DNA of 64,000 nt, from contig JADFKM010000001.1 in NCBI GenBank assembly GCA_022564935.1, positions 29,727 through 93,726 of the forward strand, read 5' to 3'. Position numbers and translations under genes: made by a program. The notes beneath the pieces are model-generated. The model ran no database searches. It saw only the letters and a list, made by a program, of their open reading frames with translations, and was not told the DNA's origin. This document shows positions 37,848-47,347 of the stretch, one piece after another. Positions within the stretch are counted from its first letter, which is position 1. Each line of letters opens with the position of its first letter. The DNA is from Candidatus Dadabacteria bacterium. Lineage in GTDB: Bacteria; Desulfobacterota_D; UBA1144; Nemesobacterales; JADFKM01.

Positions 37848-40094
37848 CTACTCTTCTTTACTTAGTATTTCGTGAAGCGTCTTGGCTACGTCGCCGATGT
37901 TGTAGGGCTTTGTTATCACGCCCTTAAACCCGTGGTCTTCGAAGTTGCTCATAACCGGGTCGTTGGAATACCCGCTGGATACGATAACCTTAGCATCGGG
38001 ATCGACCTCCAGTATGAACTCGATGGTCTCAAGTCCGCCGATGCCTCCCGGCACGGTCAGGTCAAGTATGACGGCGTCGTAGGGACTGGCATTGTTGATG
38101 GCGGCGTGATACATTTGTGTCGCTTCGCTGCCGTCCTTGGCCAGGTCGGGCTCGTACCCGAGATACTCGATGATCTCTCCAACCACCTCTCTTACCGTCT
38201 CCTCGTCGTCCATCACTAGGATTTTCCCCTTCCCCCTGAGCAGCTCCAGCTCATCGATGTCTTTACTCTGGGCCTCGATGCCTGCGGCGGGTAGAAAGAT
38301 CAGAAACTTTGTTCCCACACCGATCTTGGATTCAACCGTAATGTAGCCCTCGTGGTTATTGATTATTGAATACACCGTTGCAAGCCCAAGCCCGCTCCCC
38401 TTTTCCTTTGTTGTAAAATACGGGTCAAAAATCTTAAGCAGGTAGTCTTCTCTGATTCCGATCCCCGTGTCTTCGATCTCAATGACTATGTAGTTTCCGG
38501 CGGAGAGCGGTATAACTGAGCCCTGTTCGATTTCGACGTTCCTGGCTGTAATTCTTACTTTCCCCCCCTCGGGCATTGCCTCGTTAGCATTCATAGTCAG
38601 GTTCTGTATAACCTGGCTCATCTGCCCTTCGTCCACGTTCACCCTCCACAGGTCTTCGGAAAGGGAGTATTCGGCCCTCACGTTTGAGCCACTCAGCACG
38701 AACTCTGACCAGTCCCTTATAAGGTCCTCCAGACGGATAATTTTTTTGACCGGTGACCCGCCCTTTGAGAAAGTGAGAAGCTGTCCGGTAAGGGTTTTAG
38801 CCCTGAGACACGCATTCTCGGCCTCCACGAGCCTTTTATAGGATTTTGCTTCCTCGTTTACGAGCATTTTAGTTATCGAGATGTTTCCCATAATACCCGT
38901 GAGAAGGTTGTTGAAATCGTGTGCGATACCGCCTGCGAGCGCGCCTATGGATTCGAGCTTTTGAGACTTTATGAGCTCCTCTTCCGCCCGCTTTCGGTGG
39001 GTTATGTCTTCAACGACACCCAATCCGCCCACGACGTTTCCGCTCCCGTCGGTGATAGGGGCGACGCGCACAGAAAGTATCAGCTTCAAGTGACCCGTGG
39101 TCGCCTCGTAAGCGCTCTCTTGGTGGGCGAACTTCCCTTCAAGGGCCATCTCCATTACGGGAATAAAGCCCTTGTCTTTCAGCTCTTTTTGATCCAGCCC
39201 GATGAGTTTATCCCTGGAGGACTGGAGTATCTTAACCATCCGTTCATTGCACTGCGTTATCTTTAGCTCTTTGTCGAACATGTATATGCCGATGGGGGAC
39301 TGGTCGAATAGGGTCCGGTAGACTTCCTCGGACTGTCTGAGCTGCTCGGCCCTGGTGGCGTTGTTGATAGCCATCTCTATTTGCTTTGCTACAATTTCCA
39401 GCAGAGTCAGCTCCTCCTGGTCGAAGGCGTTTAGCTCCATAGAGTTGACGTTGATACAGCCGATGACCCGTTCTTCAAACTCGATAGGCATGGACAGGTA
39501 GCTCTTTGTTCCGAGCTCTTTCCCGGCGGGGCCGATAACGGTGTCTTTGTGTGTGTCGGCCACGTACCTGGGCTTCCCATCCAGTATGGTCTTCCATGTG
39601 AAGCCCTTGGGATGAGGGATACTCGCCACACGCTCCACAAACCAGTCTGGAAGACCCCTGTGCGCCTTCATGACGGCGTCCTGTTCCTCGACGAGGTAAA
39701 TGGAGATGTTGTCGACCCCTTCTATGTTCTTGCTCATCACATCGACTGCGTTCTCAAGCACCTCCTGGAGGTCGATAGATTGATGGATGCTTGCTATCAC
39801 GAGGTTGATGATGGTTTCGTACCTGCTCTTTTTCTCAATCTGGGCGAAGTTTTCTTTGAGGGCTTCCTCGGCCCGTTTACGCTCTTGGGTCTCAGCCTGG
39901 AGGGACTCGTTAGCCTTGGCTAGCTCCTGGGAGCTCAAATCCAGAGACCGCTCCAACATCTCCCGGTCGGAGTCGAACTCCCAGTAAGCGTCGTTTATCA
40001 TAGACAGGAATTCTTCGAGCTCTCGGTCAGGGGGCTCAGGACTGCCGAACTGTTTCTTTAATTGACGCCTCAGAAGGCTATGGATATTTTTCAA
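37848..40094 (-). CDS. Hybrid histidine kinase: GAF, PAS, HisKA, HATPase, receiver
   Basis: This 748-residue protein has an N-terminal coiled coil (about 25-95), a GAF domain (about 100-240), a PAS domain (about 258-375), a HisKA dimerisation domain with phospho-acceptor H392 in [11 protein letters not shown], an ATPase domain (EMPEGG N-box region, [19 protein letters not shown]), and a C-terminal receiver with acceptor D678 in VILDLTVPGG. No membrane helix is seen, so it is cytoplasmic. The start is a TTG 3 bp after the stop of a ruined FIST gene, suggesting a former FIST-kinase operon. Confidence 0.9.
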   Translation of the reverse strand: MKNIHSLLRRQLKKQFGSPEPPDRELEEFLSMINDAYWEFDSDREMLERSLDLSSQELAKANESLQAETQERKRAEEALKENFAQIEKKSRYETIINLVIASIHQSIDLQEVLENAVDVMSKNIEGVDNISIYLVEEQDAVMKAHRGLPDWFVERVASIPHPKGFTWKTILDGKPRYVADTHKDTVIGPAGKELGTKSYLSMPIEFEERVIGCINVNSMELNAFDQEELTLLEIVAKQIEMAINNATRAEQLRQSEEVYRTLFDQSPIGIYMFDKELKITQCNERMVKILQSSRDKLIGLDQKELKDKGFIPVMEMALEGKFAHQESAYEATTGHLKLILSVRVAPITDGSGNVVGGLGVVEDITHRKRAEEELIKSQKLESIGALAGGIAHDFNNLLTGIMGNISITKMLVNEEAKSYKRLVEAENACLRAKTLTGQLLTFSKGGSPVKKIIRLEDLIRDWSEFVLSGSNVRAEYSLSEDLWRVNVDEGQMSQVIQNLTMNANEAMPEGGKVRITARNVEIEQGSVIPLSAGNYIVIEIEDTGIGIREDYLLKIFDPYFTTKEKGSGLGLATVYSIINNHEGYITVESKIGVGTKFLIFLPAAGIEAQSKDIDELELLRGKGKILVMDDEETVREVVGEIIEYLGYEPDLAKDGSEATQMYHAAINNASPYDAVILDLTVPGGIGGLETIEFILEVDPDAKVIVSSGYSNDPVMSNFEDHGFKGVITKPYNIGDVAKTLHEILSKEE

Positions 40095-40097
40095 ACC

Positions 40098-40379
40098 CTA
40101 TCTCTCTGAAAAAGTAGTTATCGTCATAGTCTGGCTATGCAATTCGCAATTCGCCCCCGGGCTGAAGGGTGAGATCTCACCGTATGAATAAAACCCGTTG
40201 AGAAAGGGTTTTTTGCTCAGTACGTCCCGGACGGCCTCTGCCCCCTCTTCGGTGTGGGTTGGTTCTTTTAGAGCTGCAGTGCTGCCGAACATCAGCACCA
40301 GCTGGATTGAGGCGTTCGGTTCCCATGGCACAAAAGTCCATTACGCCGATTCGTCCACTGAGCTTTGCTCGATTTTCAT
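40098..40379 (-). pseudogene. FIST-domain sensor gene remnant
   Basis: The minus strand from ATG 40379 reads MKIEQSSVDESA, then a TAA (40341-40343), then in the same frame a clear FIST C-terminal end: ASIQLVLMFGSTAALKEPTH and FLNGFYSYGEISPFSPGANC, stopping at 40098. Intact FIST proteins are ~380 residues; only ~90 codons remain, so most of the gene is deleted and a stop interrupts the rest. FIST proteins are ligand sensors often encoded beside histidine kinases, matching its place just before the kinase at 40094. Confidence 0.65.
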
Positions 40380-40558
40380 TTGCACATTGCCCTAGATTAA
40401 TATTACACCATGTTGTTAAAGAATGCAGTCACAAAGTTTATGAATTTCAAGATTTGGTGTCTGCTTGGCTTTGTGTTGTAAGGGTGGTGGAGATGCAGGT
40501 TGTCGAGCCTGAACGGAGGTTTTGTATGAGATGTATGAGTTATAGAGCGGGTTAAAAA

Positions 40559-42106
40559 CTATTTTTTGCACACTTTGTACAGCGTCTTGCTTATGGACGC
40601 TATGTTGTACGGTTTTGTTATTACCCCCTTGAATCCATATTTTTCGTAATCACACATTATCGGGTCGTTTGAAAAACCGCTGGATACGATCGCCCTTGCA
40701 CCCGGGTCGATTCGGAGAAGCATTTCTATAGCTTCCCTGCCTCCCATGCCGCCTTGAATGGTTAGATCCAAGATCGCAGCTTCAAACGGAGCTCCTTTTA
40801 GGTGCGCTGCTCTGTAGAGTTCGATAAACTGGTTCCCGTCACCAGTGAAATCCGTTTCATAACCCAGGAAGCTGAGCATCTCTCCAAGCACCTTTCTCAC
40901 CGTTTCGTTGTCATCCATAATGAGTACCCTACCCTGGCCGGTTTTCAGCTCTCCGGGTTTTTCTTCCTCAACACCGGGCTCCTGCTCTGAGGCGGGGAGA
41001 TAAATATAAAACTTCGTGCCCGTACCAAGCTCCGACTCGACCCTTATCAGGCCCCCATGGTTGTCTATGATGGAATAGACCGTGGCGAGGCCCAGTCCGC
41101 TTCCGGCTTGTTTTGTGGTGAAATACGGGTCGAAGATCTTTGTCAAGTGCTCCTCCATTATTCCGCTGCCGTTGTCCTCGACTGTAATTTGTATATATTT
41201 CCCATTTTTGAGAGGGAGCGAGTCTACTGGAGAGATGAGTTTGTTCAAAGCCATGATCTTTATGACTCCGCCTCCGGGCATTGCTTGAATGGCGTTTAGA
41301 ACCAGGTTCTGAATCACCTGGCTCAGCTGACCCTCGTCTGCCTCCGTTCTCCACAGGTCTTCGGTGATGTGGAATTCCCCCCTTACGTTTGAGCCCCTCA
41401 ATACGAACTCTGCCCACTCATTGATGCGGCTTTCAAGGGCTATGACCTTCTTGAGCGGCGCTCCGCCCTTAGAGAAAGTGAGGAGCTGCCTGGTAAGGTC
41501 TTTTGCCATCAGGCACGCCTTCTCCGCTTCTTTGAGAACCCTTAGGGACTCGCCCTGCTCATTCATGTGCATCATCGATACGGAAATGTTGCCCATAATG
41601 CCTGTGAGAAGGTTGTTGAAATCATGGGCGATGCCCCCGGCGAGTACCCCCACCGATTCTATTTTTTGGGATTTTAAAAACTCCTCCTCCATCTTTTTCC
41701 GCTCCGTTACATCGATGAAAAGGGCCACTATGTTCGTTAGGTTTCCGTTATCGTCGCTAACCGGGGATATGCTCAGGTCGTTCCAGAACGGGGTGCCGTC
41801 CTTTTTGTAATTAAGAATCACTATCTCGCAGTTCCGTCCTTCCGAGATCGCCGACCTCAGGAACTCGGCCGATCTCTGGTCGGTGCCCGGGCCCTTGAGG
41901 AGTTGTTTGGTGCGGCCTATAACCTCATGTCTTGTGTATCCGGTGATTACCTCAAAGGCGGAATTACAGTACACTATCGGGTTTTCGGGAAGGTTCGGGT
42001 CTGTGATAACCACACCCTTACTTAAGGATTCAATCGCTCTATAGAACACCGAAAGCTTCATCTTGGTGTCCATGATTACGATATTGTCTTTGGTTGTTCC
42101 AAGCAT
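40559..42106 (-). CDS. Hybrid histidine kinase: LOV-like PAS, HisKA, HATPase, receiver
   Basis: This 515-residue protein has a PAS domain (about 18-140), HisKA with H161 in [11 protein letters not shown], an ATPase domain ([19 protein letters not shown]), and a receiver with D447 in [10 protein letters not shown]. The PAS domain looks like a LOV photosensor ([34 protein letters not shown]), but the flavin-adduct cysteine position (NCRFLQ) reads TKQLLK, with K67 in place of Cys. It shares ~50% or more of kinase and receiver sequence with the neighbour at 37848-40094. AAGGAGG precedes the ATG. Confidence 0.9.
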
Positions 42107-42598: not shown

Positions 42599-42628
42599 TT
42601 GACAACCCCCCTCATGTTCGATTATATT
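42599..42628 (+). promoter_or_regulatory. Promoter of the B12 uptake operon
   Basis: A consensus TTGACA (42599-42604) and TATATT (42623-42628) with an 18 bp spacer place the transcription start just before the cobalamin riboswitch. Confidence 0.7.
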
Positions 42629-42639
42629 CAGCATTGCTT

Positions 42640-42815
42640 AACGTTCTTTTAGAATCTTGCTGCTTTCAGGAAATGGGAAGACCGGTGAGAGACCGGCGCA
42701 GCCCCGCTGCTGTAAGCAGGCCAGAATCCCTGCGGCGTGCCACTGGAGACCCTTGAGGCTCTGGGAAGGCGCAGGGCGTATACAACAGCCTGTAAGCCAG
42801 AAAACCTGCCTGAGG
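42640..42815 (+). ncRNA. Cobalamin riboswitch
   Basis: The region carries the conserved adenosylcobalamin aptamer boxes in order: GGGAAGACCGGTGAGAGACC, then CAGCCCCGCTGCTGTAAG, then GCCACTGGAGAC, then CTGGGAAGGC, and the B12 box GTAAGCCAGAAAACCTGCC at 42792-42810. It lies between a consensus promoter and the btuB start. Bound cobalamin is expected to turn the operon off. Exact boundaries are approximate. Confidence 0.95.
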
Positions 42816-42869
42816 GCTCCAAGCTTTTACTTTTCTTCGAGGGAAGAGAGTAAATGGCTGTGCCGAGCA

Positions 42870-42909
42870 GACCGCCCTTGTCTCCTTCCTTCAAGACAAG
42901 GGGTCGGTC
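42870..42909 (+). promoter_or_regulatory. Riboswitch expression platform: hairpin masking the btuB ribosome site
   Basis: The arms 42870-42883 and 42894-42909 form a long stem (CCCTTGTCT pairing with AGACAAGGG, extended by GACCG with CGGTC) with a 10-base loop. The 3' arm contains the AAGGGG ribosome site and ends at the base before the ATG (42910). No T tract follows. This indicates control at translation initiation. Confidence 0.7.
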
Positions 42910-44787
42910 ATGAAAAAATTAATCGCGCTTATCCTGTTTGTTTTCGCCCCGGCGGCGCTCTGCGAGGAGCTTGAAGAGGCGGCCCTGCCTCCAATAGTAG
43001 TGGAGGAGGAATACACGAGCCCGCCGCTGCAGTTCCCTTCGGCGTTCTCAACGATTCTGCGGCCCGATGAGTTCGGGGGGGAGTTCAACACCTCCTCTGA
43101 GGTGCTTTCTTTCTCCCCGGGGGTTCAGGTAAGGGACTTCGGAGGGTTCGGTCAGCTGAAAACGCTTTCAATCCGGGGCTCTTCCAACAACCAGCTCGTG
43201 GTGCTCCTTGACGGCGTGAGGATCTCAAGCCCTCTTGGGGGCGGCGTGGACCTCTCAACGGTGCCTGTGGAATATGTGGAGAGGTTTGAGATCGTGAGGG
43301 GGGGAGCCTCGGCGCTCGCCGGCTCCGACGCCCTGGGCGGCGTTGTGAACATCGTTACCCGACGAACGGACACTCCCCTTACGAGGGCAACGCTTACCAC
43401 TGGCTCCTTCAGGACGGTTTTGTTGAGCATGTCCCGCTCCGGCAGTTGGGGTGGCCTGGGCTACTTCTTGTCCTTCGCACATGCCCAGAGCAAGGGCGAC
43501 TTTAAATACCGCTCCATCAACGGCCTAAAGGTGCGCCGTATAAACAGTGAGTTCATTTCGGAGAGCTTCCTGGCAAAATTTGACTTCGAGCTTCCTGGAG
43601 GCTGGAAACTCGGTTTGCTCAACGAGTTCTTTTTCGACGACAAAGGCGTTCCGGGACTGGGCGAGTTCCCCGAAGACAGCTCGAACCAGAGGGACGTTAG
43701 GAACCTCACAAGCATAAAACTCTCCAAGGATGGGCTGCTGCTGGGAAAGGCGGATTTCGACCTTGTGCTTTTCGGCAGGTTCGACCAGCTGGACTTCGAA
43801 GACCCTGAGCCGACTCTTGGAGTTCCAATCGACACACTCAGCCGCACGTTTGCCCTTGCCGCAAACCCGAGGCTCATCTGGTACGCACCCCTTGGCCAGG
43901 TGGTGACTGTGGGGGGCGAGGTGAGGGTGGAGGTGCTGAGGGACGAGGGGTTCGATAACCCCGAGAGGCTAACGGTCAGCGCGTTCGCAGGGGACGAGAT
44001 AACGATTTGGAATGGCAGGGTGTTAATACACCCGCTTGTGCGTTTCGACCTGTTTCGCACCTCCGGACGGGAGGATTCCACCGACGCGCAGCTTTCTCCG
44101 AAGATCGGTTTGATATTTGCGCCCTGGGAGTATTTTTTGATAAAGGGCAACTTCGGCAGGTCATTTCGCGCCCCGAGCTTCGGAGAGCTCTTCTTCCCCG
44201 AGCGCGGATTCATAGGGGGCAACCCCGAGCTCGATACGGAAACCTCGATCGACTTCGACGCCGGAGTGGTGCTCGGGCACCCGAAGATAGGTCTTGAGCT
44301 TACGTATTTTAGAACCCGCATCGATAACCTGATCCTGTTTGTGTTCATAAGCGCTAACAGGATCGAGCCGAGGAACGTAGGTAAGGTGGACCAGCAGGGG
44401 GTCGAGGCAAGCCTCATAGCACGTCCCATTAAGTACTTCGAGCTTTTGGCCTCCTACACGCTCCTTGACGGCGAGCTTCGCGACACGGGTGCGCAGCTTC
44501 CGGGGCGGCCGAGGAACAAGCTCGACTTGAGGGGTGTTCTCTACATCAAAGCGCTCAAGCTGTACTGGGAAGCCCACTTCGTAGACAAAATTCCCTTAAG
44601 CCCATTTCCCAACACCAGAAAAACTGATTCGAGGACGACCCACGACTTCGGCGCTCAGGTGAAGTGGAAGGGGGCATTTTTGACTTTCGAGCTAAAAAAC
44701 GTATTCGACAACCTGGACGTTAGGGACGCCTTCGACTTCCCACTGCCGGGAAGGCAGGTGTATTTCACGGGGGGTTTCAGGTTCTAG
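42910..44787 (+). CDS. btuB: TonB-dependent cobalamin receptor
   Basis: This 625-residue outer-membrane receptor has a signal peptide (ending ALC near residue 18), a TonB-box-like PPIVVEEEY, a plug domain (about 40-155) with SIRGSSNNQLVVLLDGVRIS and ALAGSDALGGVVNIVTRRTD, and a 22-strand barrel ending with the C-terminal aromatic GFRF. The cobalamin riboswitch and the downstream binding-protein gene identify vitamin B12 as the substrate. It is a typical length for BtuB (~600). The gene begins directly after a hairpin covering its ribosome site. Confidence 0.93.
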   Translation: MKKLIALILFVFAPAALCEELEEAALPPIVVEEEYTSPPLQFPSAFSTILRPDEFGGEFNTSSEVLSFSPGVQVRDFGGFGQLKTLSIRGSSNNQLVVLLDGVRISSPLGGGVDLSTVPVEYVERFEIVRGGASALAGSDALGGVVNIVTRRTDTPLTRATLTTGSFRTVLLSMSRSGSWGGLGYFLSFAHAQSKGDFKYRSINGLKVRRINSEFISESFLAKFDFELPGGWKLGLLNEFFFDDKGVPGLGEFPEDSSNQRDVRNLTSIKLSKDGLLLGKADFDLVLFGRFDQLDFEDPEPTLGVPIDTLSRTFALAANPRLIWYAPLGQVVTVGGEVRVEVLRDEGFDNPERLTVSAFAGDEITIWNGRVLIHPLVRFDLFRTSGREDSTDAQLSPKIGLIFAPWEYFLIKGNFGRSFRAPSFGELFFPERGFIGGNPELDTETSIDFDAGVVLGHPKIGLELTYFRTRIDNLILFVFISANRIEPRNVGKVDQQGVEASLIARPIKYFELLASYTLLDGELRDTGAQLPGRPRNKLDLRGVLYIKALKLYWEAHFVDKIPLSPFPNTRKTDSRTTHDFGAQVKWKGAFLTFELKNVFDNLDVRDAFDFPLPGRQVYFTGGFRF

Positions 44788-44816
44788 AAATCAACACTAC
44801 AAAGGAGAAAAGAGAA

Positions 44817-46277
44817 ATGAGAGCTTTGTTTGGCATTTTGGTATTGGCGTTTTTAGCGTTTTCTTGCAGCTCCGGCGGAGGCGGCGGAGGCGGGTTTACA
44901 CCCACCGGACGCATAGTGGCGGTGGCCGAGAAGGGAGACTCGACGACGGTTGTGGTCGGAGGGCCCGGGGGGGCAGTAACGCCCGGAAGCGCGGTGTTGA
45001 TAACGAATCTCGGCACGGGGGAGACTGTCGAGAGGACTGCCGGAGGGGACGGCGGGTTCCAGGCCGTTTTCACTGCTTCAACGAACGCCGTGTTCAGGGT
45101 TGTGGCGGAAGCTGACGGTGTGGACATTACCATAGGTGTAACGCTCCTCTCGGACGCCGTATCGCTCGGCCTCGCCACTCTGGGGAGCGTTCCGGCCGAC
45201 ATCGAGATACTGGGTACAAGGGCGTATGTGGTAAACGGGTTCTCGGACAACATTCAGGTATTCGACATAACACAAAACCCTCCGGTGGAAGTGGGCACGA
45301 TAGTGCTTCCGCTGGGGCAGAACCCCGGCCTCATAACTTTCATAGGCGACAACAGAGCGGTCGTGCCCAACTCCATAGGGCAGAGCGTGGCGGTGGTGAA
45401 CATACAGAGCTTCACGTGCGAGCTCATAATTGCAAACGAGCCCGCGGATTTTACCCCGTGCGAGGAGTCGGTAATCATTCCCGGGGCGTTCGAAGAGCCT
45501 TCGGGCGTAACGCTCGTGGACGGGAAGCTGTTCGTTACCAACAACAACCTTGACCCGATGTTCAACCCTTTGGGCCCGGGCTTCATTACAATCATCGATT
45601 TCTCAACACTGGAGCTTGTAGACTTCATCGAAGCGAGCGGGGCGCACTCAGCAAGCCCGGCGCTTATAGGAGGGCTTCTGTGGGTGCTCAACAGCGGCAA
45701 CAACCTGTTCGATCTCGACACGTTTTTATTCAGCTGCGATACCGACTTTCCACCTTCGATTGATATCATCGACCCTGAGACAGGCTCAATAACCGCCTCC
45801 ATTCCCATCCCGCTGAGCCCGCTCAACCCCGATGTCTGCTTTCCCTTCACGCTCGCTCCCACGCCCGACGGCCGCTTCGCATACATGGGCCTTGGCATTG
45901 TGGGAGCGCTCCTGAAGGTAGACCTGCTAAACCGCGTTTTAGTCAGGGGAACGGACGACCCCATATTTATAACCGACCTGGACATCGAAAACCAAATTGA
46001 AGATATTAAATTCACCCCCGACGGTCTGGGCTTTATGGCCCTTTTCAACACGGACCAGATTGCCGTGCTCGACTCAAACACTGACACTGTCAATCCGTTC
46101 CCCTTCATTACCCCGTTCCCGGCGGGTCTCAAGGCGTTCGAGCCGGGCATTGACTTTGTGGAAGGGGTGCAGTTCCTAGCGCTGGCCCCGCAGGGAATGT
46201 TCCCCGACATATACTACATAACCGCTATAAGCAGCCAGCTTAACTCGATAGACACGAGCATGGTTATAGCCCCTTAG
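44817..46277 (+). CDS. Beta-propeller lipoprotein in B12 operon, BtuG-like candidate
   Basis: This 486-residue protein has a lipoprotein signal ending AFSC (C17), a seven-glycine linker (residues 20-26), a beta-sandwich carboxypeptidase-regulatory-like segment (about 30-105), and a beta propeller (about 115-486) with repeated YVTN-like blades such as RAYVVNGFSDNIQVFDI, KLFVTNNNLDP and APTPDGRFAYMGLG. It lies 29 bp after btuB under the same riboswitch. In Bacteroidota the surface propeller lipoprotein BtuG captures B12 and caps BtuB; this protein has the same place and fold. Sequence homology to BtuG is not shown. Confidence 0.7.
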   Translation: MRALFGILVLAFLAFSCSSGGGGGGGFTPTGRIVAVAEKGDSTTVVVGGPGGAVTPGSAVLITNLGTGETVERTAGGDGGFQAVFTASTNAVFRVVAEADGVDITIGVTLLSDAVSLGLATLGSVPADIEILGTRAYVVNGFSDNIQVFDITQNPPVEVGTIVLPLGQNPGLITFIGDNRAVVPNSIGQSVAVVNIQSFTCELIIANEPADFTPCEESVIIPGAFEEPSGVTLVDGKLFVTNNNLDPMFNPLGPGFITIIDFSTLELVDFIEASGAHSASPALIGGLLWVLNSGNNLFDLDTFLFSCDTDFPPSIDIIDPETGSITASIPIPLSPLNPDVCFPFTLAPTPDGRFAYMGLGIVGALLKVDLLNRVLVRGTDDPIFITDLDIENQIEDIKFTPDGLGFMALFNTDQIAVLDSNTDTVNPFPFITPFPAGLKAFEPGIDFVEGVQFLALAPQGMFPDIYYITAISSQLNSIDTSMVIAP

Positions 46278-46402
46278 GGACAGAATCCGCACGGGAGAAA
46301 TTGACCCTTGTAAACAAGCGGCGATTCATTAAATATAAAGGGTGGTAAGGGGAGGGCCAAGGGACACCCAAGCGCCGTCCTCCCTCAAACCGGGACTGCC
46401 GT

Positions 46403-47347
46403 ATGCGAATATGCTCGTTCCTTCCAAGCGCCACCGAGATACTCTACTCCCTGGGACTGGGCGAGAGTGTTGTGGGGGTGACCCATGAGTGCGACTTCCC
46501 GCCCGAAATAATGATAAAGTCCCAGGTCGTAAAGAGCTCCTTCGACCTGCGGAGCCTCTCAAGCTCCGAGATCGACACGCTGGTGAGCGAGAGCTCAAAG
46601 GCCGGCAAGAGCACGTACATAGTCGAGCTCGACGCGTTGAGGGAGGCGAGGCCCGACCTCATCGTCACGCAGGACTTGTGCGAGGTGTGCGCGGTGAGCG
46701 GCGATGAGACGATAGACGCCATAAAGGCGCTTGACCACACCCCGGAGGTCGTCTCGCTCTACCCCAAAAGCCTGGAGGGCATACTGGACACCATCATCGT
46801 GCTTGGTGAGGCCACCGGCACGCAGCGGCGCGCAAGAGAGGTGACCGAAGCTCTCAGAGGGAGAATCGATGCCGTGCGGTCTGTGCTTGCAGGGGAGAGG
46901 GACAGGCCCAGGGTTTTTCCGATGGAGTGGCTTGAGCCGCCCTACGTTGGGGGTCACTGGGTTCCGGAGATGATAGAGATTGCCGGGGGCGACTGCGGCC
47001 TTGGCGAGGCCGGGGAGCCTTCCCGGAGGGTGAGCTGGGAAGAGATCGAGGGCTTCGCCCCGCAGATGATAATAGTTATGGCCTGCGGGTTCGACGTCGA
47101 GAGGACGATCGATGAGATCGACGCGGTCACTTCGAACCCCAGCTGGCGCTCTACTCCCGCATCCAGGAAGGGACACGTATACATAACAGACGCCAATTCG
47201 TACTTCAGCAGGCCCGGCCCCCGCATTGTAGAGGCGCTGGAAATACTGGCGCGAATCCTCCACCCGGAGGTTTGCGACTACCCAATACCTGTGGACTCAG
47301 TGATTAACCTACGCAACTACCTCTACTTCCAGAACTCGCTTGGGTGA
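46403..47347 (+). CDS. btuF: BtuF-like cobalamin-binding protein without signal peptide
   Basis: This 314-residue protein has the class III periplasmic-binding fold: MRICSFLPSATEILYSLGLG, RPDLIVTQDLCEVCAVS, a long backbone helix near residue 140, and the C-terminal EALEILARILHPE. It has the Trp/Glu/Pro motif MEWLEPPYVGGHWVPEMI of the cobalamin-binding subfamily. There is no signal peptide: the first strand starts at residue 2. Such forms may work in the cytoplasm or be exported otherwise. No BtuC or BtuD transporter gene is in the window. It is 125 bp after the lipoprotein. Confidence 0.82.
   Translation: MRICSFLPSATEILYSLGLGESVVGVTHECDFPPEIMIKSQVVKSSFDLRSLSSSEIDTLVSESSKAGKSTYIVELDALREARPDLIVTQDLCEVCAVSGDETIDAIKALDHTPEVVSLYPKSLEGILDTIIVLGEATGTQRRAREVTEALRGRIDAVRSVLAGERDRPRVFPMEWLEPPYVGGHWVPEMIEIAGGDCGLGEAGEPSRRVSWEEIEGFAPQMIIVMACGFDVERTIDEIDAVTSNPSWRSTPASRKGHVYITDANSYFSRPGPRIVEALEILARILHPEVCDYPIPVDSVINLRNYLYFQNSLG

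Follow-up and report, generated by a model that had tools for sequence, protein, structure and literature searches.

The locus described here is probably the outer-membrane half of a cobalamin-repressed vitamin B12 uptake system, in which a BtuB-type receptor would be covered by a divergent lid of the BtuG type. We infer the ligand, the surface location, the complex with the receptor and the mechanism of this lid. Judged by its sequence, the propeller lipoprotein encoded behind the receptor gene appears to be a divergent BtuG homologue, from a family whose members have BtuB-type receptors as partners in four or more bacterial groups.

Organization of the locus

A promoter-like site, a cobalamin riboswitch, a btuB-type gene and the gene of the propeller lipoprotein are contiguous on the + strand at 42599–46277 of the window, i.e., the whole 64-kb stretch of DNA that was analyzed. 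The original prediction had described these four elements and a BtuF-like gene behind them as lying on one strand, and all five were located on the + strand. The promoter that it listed is a sigma-70-like site (42599–42628, + strand; TTGACA-18-TATATT) and was recognized by consensus match alone, with 11 of 12 positions agreeing. The cobalamin riboswitch aptamer (42644–42827, + strand) is the sole Rfam match within the window and is full-length, as had been claimed; cmscan covers the whole of RF00174 (model positions 1–189, E 2.8e-18), with 80.7 bits compared to a gathering score of 31.5 bits.

Two hairpins are predicted between the aptamer and the btuB-type gene. The first (42822–42859, + strand) is possibly the loop–loop partner of the riboswitch, and a resembling stem and loop are present in most Dadabacterial leaders. 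The second (42870–42909, + strand) sequesters the Shine–Dalgarno sequence AAGGGG (42898–42903), which sits six bases ahead of the btuB ATG; the fold of 42860–42915 has a predicted energy of −21.5 kcal/mol (z −2.47). A similar stem, altered in sequence, occupies this position in 11 of the 12 leaders of the order, and the predicted structures therefore point to control at the level of translation. At low cellular B12 the riboswitch would leave the btuB start accessible, and at high B12 the second hairpin would mask it.

The other genes of the window had been judged not to look like Bacteroidota. This agrees with the genomes of the same order, which are mostly named Candidatus Dadabacteria and in some cases Deltaproteobacteria or Thermodesulfobacteriota. 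Just upstream of the operon, on the − strand (37848–42106), two adjacent hybrid histidine kinases are encoded that have PAS or GAF-like parts, C-terminal receiver domains and kinase halves that are alike.

The btuB-type gene (42910–44787, + strand) encodes a TonB-dependent receptor of 625 aa with a Plug domain (PF07715, 3.6e-20) and a barrel (PF00593, 5.8e-38). Its identification as a B12 receptor is borne out by the highest-ranking NCBIfam model, the B12 receptor TIGR01779 (E 4.3e-46), and by the highest-ranking PDB match, E. coli BtuB, with BtuB1 of Bacteroides thetaiotaomicron ranking lower. The name BtuB-type is used since the score of 157.7 bits falls below the TIGR01779 equivalog cut-off of 599.7 bits. 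As the structural model of the receptor is poor (pLDDT 61.8, plug unmodelled), the extracellular loop EL8 was located by alignment. The EL8-like loop, ILFVFISANRIEPRN, is equal in length to that of other propeller-partnered receptors in the alignment, e.g., IVWQPGPNGIWSPVN in locus L175, and has no aromatic residue ahead of the proline. In Bacteroides, an aromatic residue of EL8 is thought to assist B12 ejection (PMC10404256); the hand-over in Dadabacteria, if real, would therefore need other residues.

The third gene (46403–47347, + strand) encodes a protein of 314 aa that was correctly assigned to the BtuF family (Peripla_BP_2, PF01497, E 2.6e-22) but is no normal exported BtuF. The mature BtuF-like sequence begins at Met1, so that a signal peptide is absent and the protein is probably cytoplasmic; the mature fold also starts at Met1 in 17 relatives. 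Throughout the order (L021–L039) the third gene consistently encodes this signal-less protein, which may bind corrinoids in the cytoplasm, and the gene of another BtuF, one that is exported, often comes next. In most relatives, exported BtuF, BtuD and BtuC continue the btuB–propeller operon; in the host genome they are split off, forming a BtuF-BtuC-BtuD locus on contig C51 (L045:3539–6619) that is led by a second cobalamin riboswitch, which rules out that BtuFCD is missing. The host cell does use B12, as shown by six of its proteins that exceed the B12-binding cut-off. Within the B12 uptake cluster of genome G006 (L036:2854–4876), ORFs were seen by eye that resemble CobS and CobU and hint at cobinamide salvage.

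The propeller lipoprotein and its relationship to BtuG

The lipoprotein (44817–46277, + strand) consists of a signal peptide (residues 1–16), Cys17, a glycine linker (20–26), an Ig-like domain (approximately 30–110) and a propeller (approximately 111–486). The original description as a 486-residue lipoprotein with beta-propeller repeats therefore stands, with a lipobox and seven blades. The codon of the putatively lipidated Cys17 (LAFS-C) is at 44865–44867 (+ strand), and each of the 18 homologues with a complete N-terminus likewise has a cysteine after its signal peptide. The poly-glycine linker and the extra N-terminal beta domain were likewise recovered. The former is a tether of seven glycines (44874–44894, + strand), a region that is glycine-rich in nearly all homologues. 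The latter is an Ig-like or CarboxypepD_reg-like domain (44904–45146, + strand), which has strands at residues 34–110 in the AlphaFold2 model and weak CarboxypepD_reg and Big_6 matches in homologues. The structure prediction that had been proposed as a check, run with 20 homologues, gives this small beta domain and a seven-bladed propeller (mean pLDDT 87.9), and seven blade repeats are also seen when 19 homologues (46–53% identity) are aligned to the lipoprotein.

In general, the locus resembles BtuBG of B. thetaiotaomicron (BtuG1–3) in having a riboswitch-led btuB and an adjacent acidic seven-bladed lipoprotein with detectable profile homology. It differs by the N-terminal Ig-like domain, the seven-glycine tether, four propeller cysteines (201, 215, 307 and 341) that are invariant in addition to the lipid-bearing Cys17, its occurrence in another phylum and the absence of a DUF5074 match at the cut-off. 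The net charge of the lipoprotein is −40, of which −37 resides in the propeller, and relatives range from −35 to −59; BtuG2, with a net charge of −18, draws B12 electrostatically (PMC10404256). An asparagine closes an inner strand in blades 1–4 (residues 140, 185, 242 and 292) and not in blades 5–7, with blades assigned by eye. In BtuG2, blades 1–4 hydrogen-bond the corrin ring (PMC10404256), to which this pattern is no more than a suggestive parallel. Among the B12 contacts of BtuG2 are Trp194, Trp272 and Tyr316. As the lipoprotein holds just one tryptophan in addition to four tyrosines, the Trp194/Trp272 cage is, judged by composition, not kept as such.

Homology to BtuG was searched for in both directions. 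In the PDB, the profile of the Dadabacterial family finds BtuG1 first (E 7e-8), then NHLRC2 and then BtuG2 and BtuG3; YncE was not matched at E up to 1, and a single-sequence phmmer search with the lipoprotein gave no PDB match. Reciprocally, the sole match of a Bacteroidota BtuG profile in the host genome is the lipoprotein of the window (E 3.1e-14). On the lids this alignment spans positions of approximately 71–255; in other genomes of the phylum the same profile also matches YVTN proteins, mostly on one repeated blade. The Pfam model of BtuG, DUF5074 (PF16819), gave the opposite result: it does not match the window lipoprotein and finds 4 of 20 family members, with a best E of 4e-4 that lies below the gathering cut-off. 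The protein is therefore called a BtuG-like homologue and is not filed as a member of BtuG.

Fold comparison did not discriminate between propeller families; the modelled fold of the lipoprotein is generic. BtuG structures are frequent at ranks 2–18 of a Foldseek search. The top 50 of VIA-align hold YncE, Lp49, hydrazine synthase, WD40 and ribosomal propellers, all at Z of approximately 30–31, and no BtuG, an absence that is uninformative there. The best match in architecture, over model residues 18–486, is the leptospiral antigen Lp49 (PDB 3bws; Z 31.4, 14% identity), for which this analysis found no link to B12.

The propeller had been proposed to be convergent or transferred. Convergence is less likely, because profiles tie the lipoprotein more closely to the BtuB-partnered propellers of Zixibacteria and Bacteroidota than to the YVTN proteins of its own phylum. 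In hhalign, the family profile aligns with Zixibacteria at 1.6e-36, Bacteroidota BtuG at 1.3e-24 to 1.7e-24, Marinimicrobia at 1.3e-18 and ordinary YVTN propellers at 2e-17, values that give a ranking and not a measure since profile depths differ (three rows for Marinimicrobia). Transfer from modern Bacteroidota is not supported either, given the failure of DUF5074 and the well-supported Dadabacterial clade (100/100) with its long stem in a second, unrooted tree; a recent transfer was rejected on the strength of this stem.

A separate recruitment, in which the btuB of Dadabacteria independently gained a YVTN propeller of the ordinary kind as its partner, is unlikely as well, and it concerns origin only, being compatible with the same function. 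A first, smaller tree puts the Dadabacterial rows beside YVTN propellers (72/18), and the second tree can be rooted accordingly. However, YVTN propellers split off at 100/98 in this second tree, the profile distances favor the BtuB-linked propellers over YVTN proteins of the same phylum, and the alignment to BtuG keeps one register over most of the propeller. In the first tree a single BtuB-linked clade was rejected by the AU test (p 0.013), a result that is given little weight because two "unlinked" Bacteroidota rows may be true BtuG proteins.

Propeller–receptor pairs within and beyond the phylum

Among 57 genomes of the phylum, clear propeller homologues were found in 24 and BtuB in 21; an alignment-based search was required, as a single-sequence search of the genome contigs with the lipoprotein gave no match. 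BtuB lies directly upstream of the propeller in all 17 same-order loci whose contigs extend far enough, mostly with a riboswitch. Cases of BtuB alone or propeller alone sit at contig ends, as judged from coordinates or, for G007 and G019, by a direct check. Contig ends excepted, BtuB and propeller are jointly present or jointly absent in the order; the small-genome families f5 and f8 and most of f6 have neither.

The pairing extends to other phyla, for which the loci are the best-scoring matches of the family profile and not a random sample. A BtuB-type receptor is located directly upstream of the propeller in 18 of 19 zixibacterial loci, the contig of the 19th being cut, and a cobalamin riboswitch was likewise found in 18 of the 19. 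In Marinimicrobia the receptor is beside the propeller in 14/14 loci (riboswitch seen in 3/14), and in Bacteroidota, here in the GTDB sense (the phylum was drawn for an Ignavibacteriae record), in 15/19 (riboswitch 17/19). As receptors were recognized with the Dadabacterial BtuB model, weak cases in these counts could be other TonB receptors. Control loci with ordinary YVTN propellers of the host phylum have BtuB in none of 20 cases, and seven of them that were scanned for a cobalamin riboswitch had none. In several Marinimicrobia (L222–L229, L231, L097–L099), one propeller lipoprotein is preceded by a tandem of two BtuB-type receptors that differ from each other. Another phylum (G057, L040/L191) has a single-stranded cluster, i.e., with all parts on one strand, in which a cobalamin riboswitch and two TonB receptors accompany a propeller of 446 aa that ends in a FlgD or type IX-like tail.

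The BtuB-linked propellers differ in their anchors. A lipobox is present on those of Dadabacteria, on most of the Marinimicrobia ones and on many from Bacteroidota. Por_Secre_tail domains occur on the BtuB-linked propellers of L096, L154, L167, L179 and L186, and on the riboswitch-linked one of L173. Dockerin_1 is found on those of L153 and L157 (Zixibacteria), which have no lipobox, and many further zixibacterial BtuB-linked propellers show dockerin-like tails by eye. Type IX sorting tails carry proteins to the cell surface, which supports the view that the family in its entirety acts outside the cell; for the Dadabacterial lipoprotein, extracellular placement is what we infer.

A periplasmic accessory propeller, which would face the periplasm and aid the movement of B12 from BtuB to BtuF or scaffold the receptor, is improbable. 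Such a role recalls E. coli YncE, a soluble periplasmic protein whose gene lies near that of the PQQ receptor PqqU/YncD, a TonB receptor locus that has no riboswitch. YncE has the same fold and is unsurpassed in its match to the lipoprotein model beyond the general level of such propellers (Z 30.8), and the YNCE Pfam model matches weakly. Moreover, the residue at +2 after the cysteine is acidic in most homologues, which would signal inner-membrane retention under E. coli rules. Against this stand the type IX tails on BtuB-linked relatives elsewhere, the glycine tether and strong negative charge, which suit a surface catcher, and the preference of the family profile for BtuG structures over YncE.

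It is very improbable that the lid is merely B12-regulated and serves another ligand as XusB does in XusAB of Bacteroides, where a seven-bladed lipoprotein (DUF4374) likewise caps a TonB receptor and binds ferric siderophores in a context of iron uptake (PMC13142918), so that the propeller-lid fold serves several ligands; the lipoprotein shares this fold and lacks the aromatic cage of BtuG, but it has no DUF4374 match and a B12 context, with cobalamin riboswitches preceding the loci across the order and also those of Zixibacteria, B12 receptor models ranking first for the barrel, and BtuF-BtuD-BtuC kept in the same operon in relatives.

Altogether, the BtuG-like reading outside Bacteroidota is supported by the propeller fold, the lipobox, the strict pairing with BtuB, the riboswitch, the negative charge and the two-way profile homology.

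Proposed mechanism and significance

In the divergent BtuG-type lid that we favor, Cys17 would anchor the lipoprotein and the glycine tether would let the acidic propeller sit over the BtuB barrel. By analogy with the pedal-bin mechanism of Bacteroides BtuBG, the propeller would capture extracellular corrinoid and pass it to BtuB. Import through BtuB would be powered by TonB, after which the riboswitch-led BtuF-BtuC-BtuD system on the other contig would move B12 inward.

In the literature, BtuG has been stated to be exclusive to Bacteroidetes on the basis of 313 gut genomes (PMC6143338), and lipoprotein-capped TonB transporters are said to seem exclusive to this group and to be useful in the gut (PMC10404256). 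No paper on BtuG in Dadabacteria, Zixibacteria or Marinimicrobia was found in a search of open-access papers. Based on the sequences of these three groups, the lid design looks widespread. This fits a growing picture: in a recent study, B12-binding DUF4465 proteins were described in eight clades, one cluster of which has 40% of its members close to propellers of PF16819, and it is argued that B12-scavenging extras are not limited to gut Bacteroides (PMC13398666, 2026). We lean towards the view that the capping of B12 receptors by propellers is old, shared across phyla and no Bacteroidetes invention, with three interchangeable anchors, i.e., a lipid (Dadabacteria, Marinimicrobia, Bacteroidota), a type IX tail (Zixibacteria, some Bacteroidota) and a dockerin (Zixibacteria), and that the Dadabacterial corrinoid pocket lacks the tryptophan cage of BtuG. 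Such swapped surface anchors form a natural test of the need for lid tethering, and a divergent pocket would offer a second solution to corrinoid binding. With the BtuB–propeller pair occurring in environmental members of Dadabacteria, Zixibacteria and Marinimicrobia, this capture strategy would extend beyond the gut, as a general answer to scarce B12.
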